This document shows positions 1,926-8,744 of a stretch of DNA of 64,000 bases, piece by piece. The DNA is from Oscillospiraceae bacterium. GTDB taxonomy: Bacteria > Bacillota > Clostridia > Oscillospirales > Ruminococcaceae. The position numbers were made by a program, and so were the translations under genes. The stretch's first letter is position 1; each line of letters begins with the position of its first letter. The notes under the pieces are model-generated. The model searched no databases and was not told the origin of the DNA. It was given only the letters and a program-made list of their open reading frames with translations. The DNA is taken from NCBI GenBank assembly GCA_017847885.1, contig JAGAUA010000038.1:1-64000 (forward strand), given 5' to 3'.

Positions 1926-2552
1926 ATGCGAGTAGTAAAAGATGCGGAAGAACGCAGAAACGAGATACTTGACGTGGCGGAAAGGCTTTTCGGAAGCAAA
2001 GGCTTTGACAGCACCAGTACCAACGATATTCTGAATGAAATCGGCATCGCAAGAGGAACGCTTTACTACCATTTTAAGTCGAAAGAGGATATTCTTGACG
2101 CAATGATTGAACGTATGACGGGAAGGCTTATCAAAAAGGCGTCCGAAATCGTGGAGCAAAAGGAGCTGCCTGTTATGCAGCGCTTGACAATGGCAATGCT
2201 TTCGCTGAATGTTGACAATGACTTGGGGCAGGAAATAATGAAGCAGGTACATAAACCGCAGAATGCGCTTATGCACCAAAAAATGCAGAACAGGCTGCTG
2301 ACAGCGGTAAATCCGCTTATCACGGGGCTTATTGAGGAAGGTATAGAGCAGGGTTTGTGTCATACCGATTTTCCTGCGGAAGCAACTGAAATGACCTTGC
2401 TCTATTCTAACATTGCATTTGACGGACTTGCCGAGATCAGCGAGACGGAACGCAGTAAAAAAATAGACGCGTTTATCTATAATACGGAACGTCTTTTGGG
2501 TATGGAAAGAGGAAGTATGCGGCAGGCAATTCTTCCGATTTTTCAAAATTAA
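1926..2552 (+). CDS. TetR/AcrR family transcriptional regulator of the adjacent MFS exporter
   Basis: 208 residues. The N-terminal HTH is textbook: RRNEILDVAERLFGSKGFDS, then TSTNDILNEIGIARGTLYYH and FKSKEDILDAM. The C-terminal domain is helical and resembles the TetR_C group seen with multidrug exporters. The promoter just upstream carries a 15-base operator at 1880-1894, and the sister site at 2598-2612 precedes the MFS gene, so self-repression plus repression of the exporter is the likely circuit. The two TetR genes in this region recognise clearly different palindromes. A hairpin terminator at 2560-2586 separates it from the MFS gene. Confidence 0.88.
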   Translation: MRVVKDAEERRNEILDVAERLFGSKGFDSTSTNDILNEIGIARGTLYYHFKSKEDILDAMIERMTGRLIKKASEIVEQKELPVMQRLTMAMLSLNVDNDLGQEIMKQVHKPQNALMHQKMQNRLLTAVNPLITGLIEEGIEQGLCHTDFPAEATEMTLLYSNIAFDGLAEISETERSKKIDAFIYNTERLLGMERGSMRQAILPIFQN

Positions 2553-2559
2553 ACCAAAT

Positions 2560-2586
2560 AAAGGAACTTTTTGTTCCTTTATATTT
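2560..2586 (+). terminator. Rho-independent terminator after the TetR gene
   Basis: AAAGGAAC, a TTTTT loop and GTTCCTTT form an 8-bp stem, followed by ATATTTT. It sits 8 bases after the TetR stop. Confidence 0.7.
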
Positions 2587-2597
2587 TAGCATTTGAC

Positions 2598-2612
2598 CGA
2601 CAGGCTGACGGT
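2598..2612. promoter_or_regulatory. TetR operator in front of the MFS gene
   Basis: CGACAGGCTGACGGT, extended as GACCG...CGGTC, aligns with 1880-1894 under the shared pattern CGACAGRCWGWCGGT. It lies directly upstream of the AAAGGAGG ribosome site of the MFS gene. Confidence 0.65.
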
Positions 2613-2629
2613 CTAAAGGAGGATATATT

Positions 2630-3865
2630 ATGAGCAACAATAAAAGCAATTTTCCCAAATTTATGCTGCTTTGGGCAGGAGAACTCATTTCTTCAATAGG
2701 CGGCGGACTTACAAGCTTTGGGCTTGGGGTGTATGTTTTTGAGCAGACAGGAAGTGCCGCAAGCATGGCACTTGTTACGCTGCTTGCGTTTCTGCCCACG
2801 CTTCTGCTGAGCGTTCCTGCCGGCGTACTTGCCGACCGCCACGACAGGCGTCTGCTTATGATGATAGGCGACAGCTTCTCTGCGTTGGGTATCCTTTACA
2901 TACTTATCTGCATGATGCACGGCGGAGCTGAGCTTTATCAAATTTGTATCGGCGTATTCATCAGTTCGGCTTTTTCCGCCCTGCTTGAGCCGTCATACCG
3001 TGCTACCGTGACCGACCTGCTTACTAAAGAGGAATACTCAAAGGCAAGCGGAATGGTGAGCATTGCAGGAAGTGCAAGATACCTTATCTCCCCTTTTCTG
3101 GCAGGTGCGCTGCTTGCTGTCAGCGATATAAAACTGCTGCTGATAATTGACATATGCACGTTCTTCCCTACTGTTATCGGTGCAGCTGTGGTGAAGAAAA
3201 AAATTGCTTCCGCAAAAACGGAAACAAGAGAATCATTCTCCGAAAGCTTAAAACAAGGCTGGAAGGCTGTTACGGGCAAACGCGGAATTATCGTCCTTAT
3301 TGCGGTATCGGCGCTTATGACCTGCTTTATGGGAACCTTTCAAACCCTTGCACAGCCGCTCATACTTGATTTTGCAGACAGCGCAACTCTCGGTACAGCC
3401 GAAACGATATGCGCCTGCGGAATGTTGGTTTCGGGCTTGCTGCTCGGTGCAAAGGGAATAAAAAAAGGTTATGTAAAAATCCTCAGCGTCTCGCTTTTTA
3501 TTGCAGGAGCAGGCATGGCAGGCTTCGGAATACTCGAGAACATTTATATCATCTGCATATTCGGTTTTATATTTTTTGCAATGCTTCCTTTTGCAAACAA
3601 CTGTCTTGATTATCTAGTGAGAACGAATATCCCCGACGAGCTTCAAGGGCGTGCATGGGGGCTTATCGGATTTCTCTCGCAAATCGGATATGTTGTGGCA
3701 TATGCCGTTTCGGGTGCGTCGGCGGACGGGATTGCGGCACAGTTTGAAATGAGCGTTGGCAGAGGGGCTGCGGTCATCATTATGATATCGGGCGCACTTT
3801 TATGTTTAAGCGCGGTGTTCCTCTATTCGCTTAAAAGTGTAAGAGCGCTGGAAAGGGTATCTTAG
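2630..3865 (+). CDS. MFS transporter, macrolide-efflux/EntS-like
   Basis: 411 residues with about 12 hydrophobic segments. The loop 2-3 signature GVLADRHDRRLLMMIGD matches the MFS GxxxDRxxRR motif, and the sequence NKSNFPKFMLLWAGELISSI near the N-terminus is typical of the MFS_3/MefA-EntS branch, proton-driven drug or siderophore exporters in the cytoplasmic membrane. AAAGGAGG lies 8 bases before the ATG. Its expression is probably induced when the neighbouring TetR protein releases the operator at 2598-2612. The substrate is unknown. The stop codon is part of a small palindromic repeat relic (3862-3894). Confidence 0.88.
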   Translation: MSNNKSNFPKFMLLWAGELISSIGGGLTSFGLGVYVFEQTGSAASMALVTLLAFLPTLLLSVPAGVLADRHDRRLLMMIGDSFSALGILYILICMMHGGAELYQICIGVFISSAFSALLEPSYRATVTDLLTKEEYSKASGMVSIAGSARYLISPFLAGALLAVSDIKLLLIIDICTFFPTVIGAAVVKKKIASAKTETRESFSESLKQGWKAVTGKRGIIVLIAVSALMTCFMGTFQTLAQPLILDFADSATLGTAETICACGMLVSGLLLGAKGIKKGYVKILSVSLFIAGAGMAGFGILENIYIICIFGFIFFAMLPFANNCLDYLVRTNIPDELQGRAWGLIGFLSQIGYVVAYAVSGASADGIAAQFEMSVGRGAAVIIMISGALLCLSAVFLYSLKSVRALERVS

Positions 3866-3929: not shown

Positions 3930-4090
3930 ATACTAATAACCATTTGTTCTATGGATAAAGACGGTGGATAGAATACGACCAATCAAGGAAAATGACCGCA
4001 GACAGGCTGCCGCCTGTCAAGGGAGTTTGACGCAGAGTGGGCGTATTATAGCCGCCGTATTTTATCCATAGGTTAAATGGTTATTAGTAT
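3930..4090. mobile_element. MITE-like element, 161 bp with 30-bp inverted ends
   Basis: The left end (3930-3959, ATACTAATAACCATTT...TATGGATAAA) and right end (4061-4090) are inverted repeats matching at 27 of 30 positions. Inside is a nested stem (AATACG...CGTATT) and an apical hairpin GACAGGC-tgcc-GCCTGTC. No coding capacity. The final base of the element is the first base of the reverse-strand stop codon of the next gene, so the insertion may have trimmed or supplied the end of that gene. It shares the terminal ATACTAAT with the element at 1-140. Confidence 0.75.
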
Positions 4091-5016
4091 TATATATGTA
4101 TTATTTTATAAAGCACGCTTTTTTCAAATTCAAGCGGACGGTTATACCTGAAGAAAACTATTCCGTTAACGGGCGATAATATTTTTGCAATAACGTCCCC
4201 CTCCAAGGGGTCGATTATTTCACACAGCAGGTCACCGATGCGCAGCTCGTCTCCTGCGTGTACATAGCTTTTGCATATTCCTGCCGACGGAGAATGTATC
4301 TGTATCAGTCTGTTTTCGCTGATGATCTCGGTAAGGTATCCGCTGCTCACATTAGCTTTGATTATCCCCCTCCTGACCATAAAACGAACAATGGCATCAA
4401 CAGCTGTTTTGGCGGAGCTTTCGTCAACATTGTCGGTTGCGTTTGTATAAAGCGAAAAAGCTTTTGTGCCCCACACCTGCCAGTTGTAATTGAGGGTGGT
4501 TGTATCATAGGGGCGCGGTGTTCTTACAAAGGCATAGGGCAGACCAAAATCCGTCATTTCCTCATGGCTTGTAAAACCTGTTTCCATAAGCTTAACATGG
4601 GGAAGAAAATCTCCCTGCTGATAAAAGCTTGCCATCTGCACACCGTAGGTATAGCCCTGTATTTCCTTGAAAATCCCGTCGGCAATACGCTGGGTGGTTT
4701 CTCCAAGGTCATAGCCCGGAAACATTCTGTTTATATCGGTGTTGTCCATTGTCCAGAAACGCTTGCCGATATTCATGGAATAATAATTCACACAGGGAAT
4801 TATCATTATTTCCTTTCCGTCGCAGATACAGCCCTCCCGTTCAAGCTCCTTTAATCTGCTTACAAGACGGGAGCAGACGTACATCTGCTGTATCTCGTTT
4901 CCGCGCATTGCCCCAACAACGCACAACGCCTTTTCACCGCTGCCAAACTTAAATCCGACCACGTCCATGGGCTGGCGATACGGTGACTGAATGGAATAAA
5001 GCACCTGTTTACGCAT
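4090..5016 (-). CDS. Degenerate M14 AstE/AspA-type hydrolase paralog (probable pseudoenzyme)
   Basis: 308 residues with the fold of the succinylglutamate desuccinylase/aspartoacylase branch of M14: the conserved DNTDINRMFPGYD stretch (residues 91-103) and a C-terminal beta-barrel-like part. Aligned with the upstream neighbour, the zinc motif GTHGDE has become AMRGNE (His to Arg38), the second zinc His (DIHSS) falls on Ala129, and the catalytic Glu in GTKTLVVE is absent. Hydrolysis is therefore unlikely; a binding or partner role is inferred. The start at ATG 5016, behind GAGGTG, is preferred over a TTG at 5043. It is the last gene of the five-gene operon, 10 bases after the active paralog. 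Its stop touches the MITE. Confidence 0.75.
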   Translation of the reverse strand: MRKQVLYSIQSPYRQPMDVVGFKFGSGEKALCVVGAMRGNEIQQMYVCSRLVSRLKELEREGCICDGKEIMIIPCVNYYSMNIGKRFWTMDNTDINRMFPGYDLGETTQRIADGIFKEIQGYTYGVQMASFYQQGDFLPHVKLMETGFTSHEEMTDFGLPYAFVRTPRPYDTTTLNYNWQVWGTKAFSLYTNATDNVDESSAKTAVDAIVRFMVRRGIIKANVSSGYLTEIISENRLIQIHSPSAGICKSYVHAGDELRIGDLLCEIIDPLEGDVIAKILSPVNGIVFFRYNRPLEFEKSVLYKIIHI

Positions 5017-5026
5017 TGGTCTCACC

Positions 5027-5953
5027 TCACAGTATCCTTGCAATAAGCGAGCCGCCGTAAACTATCGGGAACTCTCTGAGCGTAAAAATTTTTCCGCAGC
5101 ACGGTGCTGTTACCCGCTCTGCCGTTCTTCCCGTTGCAGGGTCTATAACATCTCCGATATGCTCGCCCTTTTCAATATTTACCCAATGCTCCACACAGGG
5201 CACAAAAATACCGTCTGCGCCGCTGTTGACAAATTCCACGCTGCGTTCTCCCGAAACTATCGGCTCGCGGACCTGCTCTGTTTCACCTGACCACATTCCA
5301 AGACTTTTCAGCAGATTAAAAATACCTGCGGTAAGCTGACGGCAGTATTCCTTTGTAATTCTCATTCCCACGCCCATTTCCACAACGAGAGTTTTGGTGC
5401 CTGCCGCGTTAAGGCTGTACGCAAGAGTGCTTTCAAGCACCGTTGCCGCGGAATGTATCCAGATAAAATCGCAGTTGAGCATTTCTGCATAGGGCAGAAG
5501 CTCATCTGCGCTTATTTCGTTGATTCGTATCTGCGGTATTTCTTTAAGATAGATATTGCTTGAGTGGATATCTATACAAATATCCGCACCGCTGATATCA
5601 GAAATAATATCTGCGGCAAGGCTTTCCGCCATAGTGCCGTCGGAAGTCCCGGGGAATATCCTGTTCATATCCAAATCAAAAAGGGGTATTCCTCTTGTAA
5701 TGCTGTCTATGCCAAGAGGATTTAGAGCAGGATATATGTCAACCGTACCGTTTAGCATAGATAAATTTTCGTTTAATATCCTTGCCGTCTCGGCGCAGAC
5801 ATACTGCCCCTCCAGCTCGTCGCCGTGAGTTCCCGTAACGATACATACACGCTTGCCCGACGGGGTATCGCTGCTGCGTCCGGTTATTCTGTTCCTGCGT
5901 ATTTCTACCCTTTCGTTTACGGCAAGACCTGCGCTTGCTATAACCGTTGTCAT
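5027..5953 (-). CDS. M14-family zinc amidohydrolase/carboxypeptidase, AstE/AspA-like
   Basis: 308 residues. The zinc-binding signature GTHGDE (H43, E46), a second His in DIHSS (H130), the substrate-binding stretch LFDLDMNRIFPG (91-102) and a catalytic Glu in LVVEMGVG (E192) are all present, so an active metal-dependent deacylase or peptidase is expected, acting on a small N-acyl or amide-linked substrate in the cytosol. It sits in an operon with a permuted ATP-grasp ligase, alpha-E protein and transglutaminase-like protein; a role in trimming or recycling the product of that amide-forming system is an inference. The real substrate is unknown. The neighbour at 4090-5016 is an inactive-looking paralog. 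Confidence 0.85.
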   Translation of the reverse strand: MTTVIASAGLAVNERVEIRRNRITGRSSDTPSGKRVCIVTGTHGDELEGQYVCAETARILNENLSMLNGTVDIYPALNPLGIDSITRGIPLFDLDMNRIFPGTSDGTMAESLAADIISDISGADICIDIHSSNIYLKEIPQIRINEISADELLPYAEMLNCDFIWIHSAATVLESTLAYSLNAAGTKTLVVEMGVGMRITKEYCRQLTAGIFNLLKSLGMWSGETEQVREPIVSGERSVEFVNSGADGIFVPCVEHWVNIEKGEHIGDVIDPATGRTAERVTAPCCGKIFTLREFPIVYGGSLIARIL

Positions 5954-5969
5954 GCTGAAAACACTCCCT

Positions 5970-6746
5970 TTATATTTCTGTTATACGTGATGAGACTGTC
6001 TGAATGCTGCCTGCATTGCCGATATATATCCCCCGTTCAATGGGACAGTCGGCATAATCCCGTCCGTGGCAAAGCTTAATGTAACGGTCGCCGATAAGTC
6101 GGTTATGAGTGGGGTCTATCCCCGTCCATCTCACCCCGTCATGCACCTCGACCCACGCGTGAGTTTCGCCGAATTCAAAGGCAAGCCCCGAAACGTAACG
6201 GCAGCGTATCCCCTCAATGCGCAAAAGCGACAGCAGGATATGCGCATAATCCTGACACACGCCGCTATGCATTTCCATTGCCTGTTCCGCAGTCGTTTCC
6301 GTTCCGGTCACTCCTCTGATATAGGTCATATGCTCATACAGACTTGCTGAAAGCTCTTCCGCCCGTGAAAGCACGTCCGCAGCGGACGGTTTGTTCCGCT
6401 CATAGAAAGACAGTATCTTCTCACCCGGAAAAGTCAGAGGAGTCTGAAATCCGTAAAAAGCAGCAGCTGCTCCCGAACCTCCGCATGAATTTACTATCTG
6501 CGCCTCGCCGCTTACCTTGAATGAAAAATCCTTGTGCGGCTCGTCCATTCTTCCGCAGATAAGAATATTCCCGAAGCTGTCGCGGCTGCGCCAGACCTCG
6601 CCCAATTTCGGCGATATTTCGCAAACAGGTTCGGATATTGTCTGACGTCCGTCGGAAAACGGCGTGCAGCGCAGAGTAAAGCTGTGTCCCGTTACGCATT
6701 GTGAAAACTCCAGCTTAGTTTCATATTCAAACCGCAGCCGCTTCAA
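5970..6746 (-). CDS. Transglutaminase-like cysteine protein of the ATP-grasp/alpha-E cluster
   Basis: 258 residues, the usual size for the soluble COG1305 type: an N-terminal beta-rich domain (about 1-85) and a transglutaminase core. The triad is visible as Cys164 in GVCQDYAH, His in ETHAWVE and Asp in GIDPTHN. Such proteins cleave or transfer amide bonds and commonly accompany permuted ATP-grasp and alpha-E genes. The start is TTG at 6746, with AGAGGTG placed 7 bases before it; this makes a 20-base overlap with the alpha-E gene and suggests translational coupling. No signal peptide is seen, so a cytosolic location is likely. Confidence 0.85.
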   Translation of the reverse strand: MKRLRFEYETKLEFSQCVTGHSFTLRCTPFSDGRQTISEPVCEISPKLGEVWRSRDSFGNILICGRMDEPHKDFSFKVSGEAQIVNSCGGSGAAAAFYGFQTPLTFPGEKILSFYERNKPSAADVLSRAEELSASLYEHMTYIRGVTGTETTAEQAMEMHSGVCQDYAHILLSLLRIEGIRCRYVSGLAFEFGETHAWVEVHDGVRWTGIDPTHNRLIGDRYIKLCHGRDYADCPIERGIYIGNAGSIQTVSSRITEI

Positions 6747-7440
6747 AGAAGTTCACCTCTATAAGATTTTCTATGTTCTCCAATACCAGACTGCGGTTGC
6801 CGATAAGGTCAATGCGGCTGTCTGCCACATATTTCAGCGCTTCAAAGGTTACGCTGTTTACAATACCTGCGTCCGAATCAACAAATTCCGAAACGTGCTT
6901 TATGAGATTGTCAAGCTGTGTAAATACTTCCTCTGAGGGATAACCCAGACGAAGATACATATCAGCACGCTCCACGGATTTTCCAAGATGAATTATACGA
7001 AGGGCGTCCATGTTTGTCATATTGCTGTCCACGCTGCCCCAAAACGCGTATATCGCGTCACGGACAGGCAGCATATCGTAACGTATCTTTGTTGTTCCCT
7101 CGCAGGCCTTGAACCTGTCCATAGCCATTTGCAGATATGACAGAGACGGCGTTTTTATCTCCTCTCTGAGGACTATGCCGTTTCCCAAAGCTCTGTCAAG
7201 ATTTGAGATTATGGAGTTCGGGTCGGACAGGTCGAAAACATATCTTTTGAAAAAGTCCTCCGAATTTTCGTAAATATCGGGAACGTTAATATCTGCAAGA
7301 TATTTTTCATACGCAGCCTGTCCTCCCTCGATAAATCTGTCGGCATATTTAAAAAAGCTGTTCAGCGTTGTAAAAACTTTTTCAACATATCTTCCCAGCC
7401 AAAAAAGATTGTTGATATTTATTCCGGTAATAGCACCCAT
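6727..7440 (-). CDS. Alpha-E domain protein (DUF403)
   Basis: 237 residues, almost all helical. The opening NNLFWLGRYVEKVFTTLNSF corresponds to the characteristic alpha-E start (LFWLGRYxER), and later helices carry SVERADMYLRLGYP. The family is usually around 300 residues, so this is a short version. Alpha-E proteins are nearly always found next to circularly permuted ATP-grasp ligases and transglutaminase-like proteins and are thought to assist them in making or modifying a peptide; no enzymatic activity has been assigned from sequence. It overlaps the ATP-grasp gene by 22 bases and the transglutaminase gene by 20. Confidence 0.85.
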   Translation of the reverse strand: MGAITGININNLFWLGRYVEKVFTTLNSFFKYADRFIEGGQAAYEKYLADINVPDIYENSEDFFKRYVFDLSDPNSIISNLDRALGNGIVLREEIKTPSLSYLQMAMDRFKACEGTTKIRYDMLPVRDAIYAFWGSVDSNMTNMDALRIIHLGKSVERADMYLRLGYPSEEVFTQLDNLIKHVSEFVDSDAGIVNSVTFEALKYVADSRIDLIGNRSLVLENIENLIEVNFFEAAAV

Positions 7441-8744
7441 GTGTCTTTAAATCCTCCTCCCTGAGACGAATTCACCACAAACGAATTCGCCTTTCTTGAA
7501 AAACGTGTAAGACCGCTTGCCCAGACCTGAGTCTTTTCTCCCGAAAGGACGAAGGCTCTCAAATCAGCCTTTCGCAGAACGGTTCTGTCGTTTTCCATAA
7601 CATCAAGGTCGATAAAGTCAATGATCTCCTGCGCAATAAACCGCCGCGATTGTTCGGTTATAAGCCTACGCCAGTCGGAAAGCTGCTCCTTGGTCATATC
7701 CCTGCCGAAAACCACTCCGTAGCCTCCTGCCTCGGAAACGTCCTTTATTACAAGCTTTTCAAGATTATCCAAAACATATTTCCTGTCTTCCTCATAGAAA
7801 GGCAGATACGTAGGAGCGTTTTTCAGAACAGGCTCTTCGCCCAGATAGTATTTTATCATCTTCGGGACGAAATAATAGATGCCCTTGTCGTCGGCAACTC
7901 CGTTTCCGGGAGCATTGATTATTGCCACATTTCCCGCGCGGTAGGCGTCCATGATGTGAGGAACACCGATAAGGGACTCGGGCAGGAAGGTCATCGGGTC
8001 GAGATATTCGTCGGAAATACGGCGGTAAACAGCGCCTACTCTGGTTTTTCCGCCCTGATAATCTTTCATATAGAGAATGTTGTTCTCCACAAAAAGATCC
8101 GAATTCTGAACAAGGATCGCACCTGTTTTCTCCGCAAAATAGCTATGCTCGAAATATGCGGCGTTATATCTTCCCGGAGTAAGTATAACGTTTATTCCGC
8201 CGCAGTTCACATGATCCATTGTGCTGCGCAGAAGCGACGCATAGTTGCGGTTGTCGGCAATGCGGTTGTTTTCAAACGCACCGGGACTTGCCATTCTGCA
8301 CAGCTCTCTTGCGATAAGCGGATAGCTTGCTCCCGAAGGAATACGGAGATTATCCTCCAGTATGTACCATGTACCGTCCTGTGCCTGAACAAGGTCGATA
8401 CCTGAAATATGGCTATAAATGCCTTTTGGCGGAGTTATTTCTGCGCAAGGAGCGAGGTATCCCTTTGAGATATACACAAAAACCTCGGGAATGATCCCGT
8501 CCTTGATTATTTTGCCGTCGGAATAAATATCCTTTAAAAACAAGTTAAGCGCGTCAACACGCTGAACGAGACCCTTTTCCATAGCAGAAAAATCCTCGGC
8601 GGAAATAATACGGGGAATTGCGTCAAACGGAAAAAGCTGTTCATTGAACGTACCGTTCTTATAAATTCCGAATTTTACCCCATAACGTGCAAGCAGCTCG
8701 TTTACAGCTTTAGCGTCAGCAACAGGTGTGTTCATATAATTCAT
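7419..8744 (-). CDS. Circularly permuted ATP-grasp type 2 ligase-like protein
   Basis: 441 residues. Recognisable stretches are LEDNLRIPSGASYPLIARE, YRRISDEYLDP, NAPGNGVADDK and, near the C-terminus, VVNSSQGGGFKDTWVL; these mark the COG2308 family, ATP-dependent amide ligases with a permuted ATP-grasp fold. The protein is slightly shorter at the N-terminus than typical members of 470-490 residues. It is the first gene of a five-gene operon driven by a strong promoter at 8809-8837, with a hairpin in its leader. Joining carboxylate to amine groups of a peptide or amino acid is the family-level expectation; the substrate is unknown. Confidence 0.88.
   Translation of the reverse strand: MNYMNTPVADAKAVNELLARYGVKFGIYKNGTFNEQLFPFDAIPRIISAEDFSAMEKGLVQRVDALNLFLKDIYSDGKIIKDGIIPEVFVYISKGYLAPCAEITPPKGIYSHISGIDLVQAQDGTWYILEDNLRIPSGASYPLIARELCRMASPGAFENNRIADNRNYASLLRSTMDHVNCGGINVILTPGRYNAAYFEHSYFAEKTGAILVQNSDLFVENNILYMKDYQGGKTRVGAVYRRISDEYLDPMTFLPESLIGVPHIMDAYRAGNVAIINAPGNGVADDKGIYYFVPKMIKYYLGEEPVLKNAPTYLPFYEEDRKYVLDNLEKLVIKDVSEAGGYGVVFGRDMTKEQLSDWRRLITEQSRRFIAQEIIDFIDLDVMENDRTVLRKADLRAFVLSGEKTQVWASGLTRFSRKANSFVVNSSQGGGFKDTWVLLPE

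Follow-up and report, generated by a model that had tools for sequence, protein, structure and literature searches.

What is the role of a protein that keeps the fold of a zinc hydrolase, has lost its catalytic residues and is encoded beside an intact paralog? The question is raised by two adjacent genes, hereafter live and dead, in a stretch of 64,000 nt (the window; coordinates are positions within it). They lie next to three further genes on the same strand.

4090..5016 (-): dead AstE/AspA paralog, 308 aa (PF24827, 41 bits; ortholog motif tally; AF2 fold)
5027..5953 (-): live AstE/AspA-type zinc amidohydrolase, 308 aa (PF24827, 90.3 bits; four residues in 97/97 orthologs)
5970..6746 (-): transglutaminase-like protein, Cys164-His196-Asp211 triad intact (PF01841 and PF08379)
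6727..7440 (-): Alpha-E protein, sole copy in the genome (PF04168, 65.3 bits)
7419..8744 (-): circularly permuted ATP-grasp type 2, putative amide/peptide ligase (PF14403, 456.6 bits)

The live gene is upstream and the dead gene downstream. We placed the dead start at a conserved ATG (5016), from which homologs align; the mechanical open reading frame begins at a TTG (5043). The two proteins are homologous (21% identity, E 9e-16) and are the sole PF24827 members of the genome. Genes for a TetR-type regulator and an MFS transporter (1926-3865) adjoin the operon on the opposite strand. Between these and the dead gene is a MITE-like element of ~161 bp (3930-4090), with 30-nt terminal inverted repeats that are 90% complementary. 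About six more full or partial copies, 75-97% identical, are found across the genome. The end of the element abuts the dead stop codon. Hence, the extreme C-terminus of the dead protein may have been reset.

One paralog has an intact catalytic centre

The live protein contains the motifs GTHGDE, DIHSS and VVEMG. The key residues are His43 (codon 5825-5827), Glu46, His130 (5564-5566) and the catalytic Glu192 (5378-5380). All four are kept in 97 of 97 live orthologs, in line with the first-pass annotation, which had read GTHGDE, DIHSS and the catalytic Glu as preserved. Glu192 was assigned from its family-wide invariance and from alignment to 2qj8. The position is Glu in 19 of 20 other family members, and the remaining row is gapped. 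In the profile alignment, Glu192 is out of register with Glu251 of CphZ, the residue mutated in 8eip, and we do not equate the two.

The live protein clears the PF24827 (AstE_AspA_cat) cut-off with 90.3 against 25 bits. None of the NCBIfam equivalog cut-offs for DoeB, AstE, AspA or MpaA is reached; the best score is 60.8 against 402.7 bits, for DoeB, and the others are lower. Because the scores fall well under the DoeB and AstE cut-offs, the substrate of neither enzyme can be carried over. An earlier label of M14 for both proteins is right for the clan and fold. At the family level, both belong to AstE/AspA (DoeB/CphZ-like) and not to the M14 carboxypeptidases of PF00246. The live AF2 model (pLDDT 79.1) is weaker than the dead one, and its nearest solved structures are 3cdx, 6twm and 2qj8.

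The second paralog has lost both zinc His and the catalytic Glu

In the dead protein, Arg38 (codon 4903-4905, within GAMRGNE) and Ala129 (4630-4632, VQMASFY) replace the zinc His residues. Tyr190 (4447-4449, FSLYTN) replaces the catalytic Glu. Retained are Glu41 of the zinc triad, Arg86, Asn96, Arg97 and the DINRMFPG stretch. The PF24827 cut-off is passed (41 against 25 bits), and AF2 predicts a confident AstE/AspA fold (pLDDT 85.8), with low confidence at residues 81-97, the stretch that covers the carboxylate-binding residues. The best structural matches (Foldseek/VIA) are 3fmc, 3cdx, DoeB 6twm and CphZ 8eip, at Z 26-27. Both the open reading frame motifs and the model agree with the initial description of a second protein that has the fold and D-x-NR-x-FPG, carries Arg and Ala for both zinc His and lacks the Glu. 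The combination of HxxE...H zinc ligands and catalytic Glu is absent from the dead protein in every ortholog with letters at these positions. Judged by sequence, the dead protein is a member of the AstE/AspA family by descent, not a catalytic member. Presumably, it holds no zinc.

Known AstE/AspA structures (DoeB/EutE 6twm, CphZ 8ein/8eip, 3cdx and 2qj8) match the fold over the full length, with VIA Z of 25-27 and Foldseek E down to 1e-19. Known family members share their motifs with the live protein. CphZ (8ein/8eip) is a cyanophycin dipeptide hydrolase. The pair described here differs in that identity to these structures is only ~14-27% and that the second paralog has no catalytic centre.

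The loss is ancient and the dead gene is conserved

We scanned contigs with the profile of the dead protein and with peptide patterns from which all three replaced positions were left out; at least 558 related loci were returned. The best 80 of these, together with whole-genome searches, gave ~97 distinct orthologs of the dead protein and 97 of the live one. The first zinc-His position is Arg in 96 of the 96 dead orthologs with letters there (one row is without the stretch). The second is Ala, Thr, Val or Ser in 97 of 97, and never His. At the catalytic Glu position, 93 have Tyr and 4 have Phe. Recurrence of the same three replacements in ~97 distinct orthologs is a pattern beyond chance.

Against close relatives where dS was computable, dN/dS of the dead gene is 0.067-0.083, a rough figure with dS above 1. 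That of the live gene is comparable (0.035-0.087), and the dead values are lower than those of the Alpha-E and transglutaminase genes. The dead gene is under strong purifying selection. The ortholog tally, the dN/dS of ~0.07-0.08 and the co-occurrence of the two genes thus point to an ancient loss and not to local decay. The first-pass annotation had called for an ortholog alignment; the loss proved to be conserved, with intact His in 0 of 97 close orthologs.

The catalytic Glu was probably lost before the zinc ligands

Second paralogs with both zinc His are present in one deep lineage of the same phylum (family f155, six genomes). These have Met in place of the catalytic Glu (ILMLG), in 7 of 7 rows. 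Hence, with regard to the proposal that His-intact second genes would signal local decay, no close ortholog is of this kind; such genes do exist in the deep lineage, but they are Glu-less. In each of the six genomes, the second paralog adjoins the live gene. In one (G739), the order is ATP-grasp, Alpha-E, transglutaminase, live and second paralog.

We built a tree with the active-site columns removed and rooted it on other family members. The dead proteins and the Glu-less, His-containing f155 lineage form one clade (99/93). All live proteins, those of f155 included, form a separate clade (100/97). Since the f155 proteins keep His and have Met for Glu, the active site was probably lost in steps, first the Glu and later the zinc ligands, and the f155 second paralogs represent an earlier stage of this process. 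The simplest reading of the alignment and tree would be one duplication, after which the ancestral second paralog lost its Glu and, in the larger branch only, both His disappeared later. Alternatively, Glu may have been lost independently in the two branches, to Met in one and Tyr in the other. With this half-way state, in which the zinc site is kept and the Glu lost, it can be tested directly in what order an enzyme turned into a pseudoenzyme.

Conservation of the dead protein is concentrated in the pocket loops

In the M14 clan, the oxyanion and the substrate carboxylate are bound by Arg127, Asn144 and Arg145 of carboxypeptidase A and by Arg63, Asn70 and Arg71 of aspartoacylase. We equate Arg86 and Asn96-Arg97 of the dead protein with these residues. 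All three are kept in 97 of 97 dead orthologs. Hence, ligand binding has probably been retained in the dead pocket. Invariant dead columns are enriched in the active-site loops, whose limits we set by hand (50 of 85, against 24 of 109 elsewhere in the domain, p 3e-7). Many invariant polar residues in these loops are specific to the dead protein, among them RPYDTTTLNYNWQ, H140 and Y190. In the C-terminal domain, 7 of 114 dead positions are invariant, against 20 of 113 in the live protein. Concentration of invariant positions in the loops and their sparsity towards the C-terminus argues for a ligand-binding pocket rather than a bare scaffold.

The live and dead genes are inherited together

Among 382 genomes of the class, 14 contain the live gene (above 400 bits) and all 14 contain the dead gene. 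No genome searched for both had one without the other. In most related loci, the start of dead overlaps the end of live; of 90 loci, 42 have an overlap of 4 nt, 23 of 8 nt and 8 of 1 nt. The window, with its 10-nt gap, is an exception. Overlapping frames suggest translational coupling and matched amounts of the two proteins. Together with strict co-inheritance, they favour a complex. The partial distance correlation is 0.40 for live and dead, slightly above the 0.35 for live and ATP-grasp. We rejected mirror-tree correlations as evidence of contact; they are confounded by shared descent and hold no special contact signal.

Given the loss in all close relatives and the constant joint inheritance, the inactive protein most likely has a real role as partner of the live one. 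The conserved inactive partner suggested by the first-pass annotation is upheld by the tally of intact His (0 of 97), by purifying selection and by the presence of the live gene in every tested genome that has the dead one.

The pair mostly occupies the last slot of an Anbu-type operon

Most related loci preserve the order ATP-grasp, Alpha-E, transglutaminase, live and dead, with the pair normally last. In the class sample, 11 of 11 Alpha-E-positive genomes have the pair. The transglutaminase triad is conserved in 72-73 of 73 orthologs. The locus shares with Anbu-type amidoligase operons an ordered trio of genes, for circularly permuted ATP-grasp, Alpha-E and a transglutaminase-like protein. 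A search of the whole genome for proteasome-fold proteins, Anbu included, gave no PF00227 match. According to two papers that cite Iyer et al. 2009, the Anbu operon comprises ATP-grasp, Alpha-E, transglutaminase and Anbu; a role in peptide synthesis is proposed for it, in which Anbu would be the peptidase (PMC5666114, PMC6376114). The first three genes and their order are common to both operons, and a hydrolase follows. However, the Anbu operon ends in Anbu, whereas here the live/dead pair fills the last slot. The pair is a concrete hydrolase candidate for an ATP-grasp/Alpha-E/transglutaminase peptide-ligase operon. A role of the locus in anti-phage defence was considered and set aside; PADLOC gave a single weak match (16.7 bits), between the transglutaminase and DruB.

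In three genomes (G035, G224 and G299; loci L131, L132 and L133) the pair stands alone, and no such ATP-grasp scores above cut-off genome-wide. The neighbours are unrelated: a sugar epimerase, a class-III aminotransferase with a PucR regulator, and DUF1062. In a Chitinispirillales MAG (L081), the pair is present apart from the ATP-grasp gene. The link to the operon is therefore not obligatory, and the substrate may differ from the operon product. In the L131-L133 genomes, it is probably independent of the ATP-grasp operon. Persistence of the pair without the operon indicates that the unit constantly kept is live plus dead, not the whole operon.

A probable non-catalytic partner for the live hydrolase

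The best explanation, and one that we regard as reasonably probable, is that the dead protein, after stepwise loss of its active site, came to bind a ligand without catalysis and to serve the live hydrolase as an obligate partner. We infer the physical live/dead heterodimer, the binding of a ligand and the substrate as follows. Both genes would descend from an AstE/AspA-type zinc amidohydrolase that was duplicated once, long ago. The upstream copy would have remained an enzyme that hydrolyses an amide bond, probably an isopeptide or N-acyl-amino-acid bond. Its downstream sister would have abandoned catalysis stepwise, giving up the catalytic Glu and then both zinc His, while keeping the fold, the Arg/Asn-Arg residues that bind carboxylate and a pocket that is strongly conserved. 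Arg38, in the former zinc-ligand position, may substitute for the charge of zinc. Made together with the live enzyme through coupled translation, and bound to it in a heteromer, the dead protein would be its obligate partner. The dead subunit could hold a negatively charged substrate, product or effector and so tune or target the live subunit. The product of the ATP-grasp/Alpha-E/transglutaminase operon would probably be what the pair acts on in most hosts, with the pair in the hydrolase slot that is filled by Anbu in other bacteria. The most specific version combines an obligate heteromer, an Arg that replaces the zinc charge, a pocket able to bind but not to cleave what the ATP-grasp ligase makes, and intermediates surviving in the sister lineage; we offer it tentatively and doubt that it holds in full.

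Alternatively, the dead protein could be a free-standing sensor or carrier for a metabolite of the operon, making no complex with the live hydrolase. The conserved pocket and the retained carboxylate-binding Arg/Asn-Arg residues would fit such a role, but the dead gene never occurs without the live gene and the frames overlap. We think this unlikely. The dead protein might also not be dead, and could use invariant Glu41, His140, Asp171, Tyr190 and Arg38 for other chemistry or another metal site. The number of dead-specific invariant polar residues in the active-site loops is consistent with this. However, all three replaced positions belong to the known catalytic core, and the deep sister lineage, in which the Glu alone is gone, fits loss better than a switch of chemistry. 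Such a protein is hence rather improbable. Poorer still are the chances of a scaffold tying the live hydrolase to a complex of ATP-grasp, Alpha-E and transglutaminase; gene order is conserved and dead is the last gene, but the pair survives in genomes with no ATP-grasp gene, and conservation sits in the pocket loops with few invariants in the C-terminal domain (7/114). Nothing beyond the missing residues speaks for recent local decay of a second, redundant gene. Such decay is refuted by the ortholog tally and can practically be dismissed: the replacements are shared by ~97 orthologs from many families and two phyla, and dN/dS is 0.07-0.08.

A non-catalytic partner is not without precedent; pseudoenzyme partners are already known for M16 peptidases and as the AdoMetDC prozyme (PMC11266112, PMC5201418). 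Heterodimers with one inactive subunit are formed by mitochondrial processing peptidase and by the products of bacterial M16B two-gene operons (PMC11266112). As here, the M16 pairs are adjacent active and inactive zinc-hydrolase paralogs. However, the fold is unrelated, and the heterodimer is proven for M16 and proposed for the AstE/AspA pair. In Trypanosoma, a conserved dead paralog, prozyme, activates live AdoMetDC (PMC5201418). The likeness is in the conservation of a dead paralog alongside a live enzyme, but AdoMetDC is a different enzyme, from a eukaryote, and its mechanism has been demonstrated. M14 pseudopeptidases such as Ecm14 have lost zinc and catalytic residues (PMC7706225). These share the clan and the kind of residue loss with the dead protein; however, they are eukaryotic and carboxypeptidase-like, and are described without an obligate live partner encoded alongside. 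In the literature searched, which did not extend to Iyer et al. 2009, we found no report of a conserved live/dead pair in the AstE/AspA family.

Distribution of the pair

Among Clostridia of the gut and rumen the pair is widespread, and the cultured species Ruminococcus flavefaciens and R. albus have it. It is also carried by Fibrobacterota MAGs (L081, 5061-6942; L093, 2790-4695). The L081 and L093 sequences nest among those of Clostridia in the tree, which suggests either horizontal transfer between gut bacteria or mis-binning of the MAGs. In one relative (G061; locus L138, 5669-7204), the dead protein carries an extra C-terminal domain, an S-adenosylmethionine methyltransferase (PF08241, 81 bits), as a fusion.
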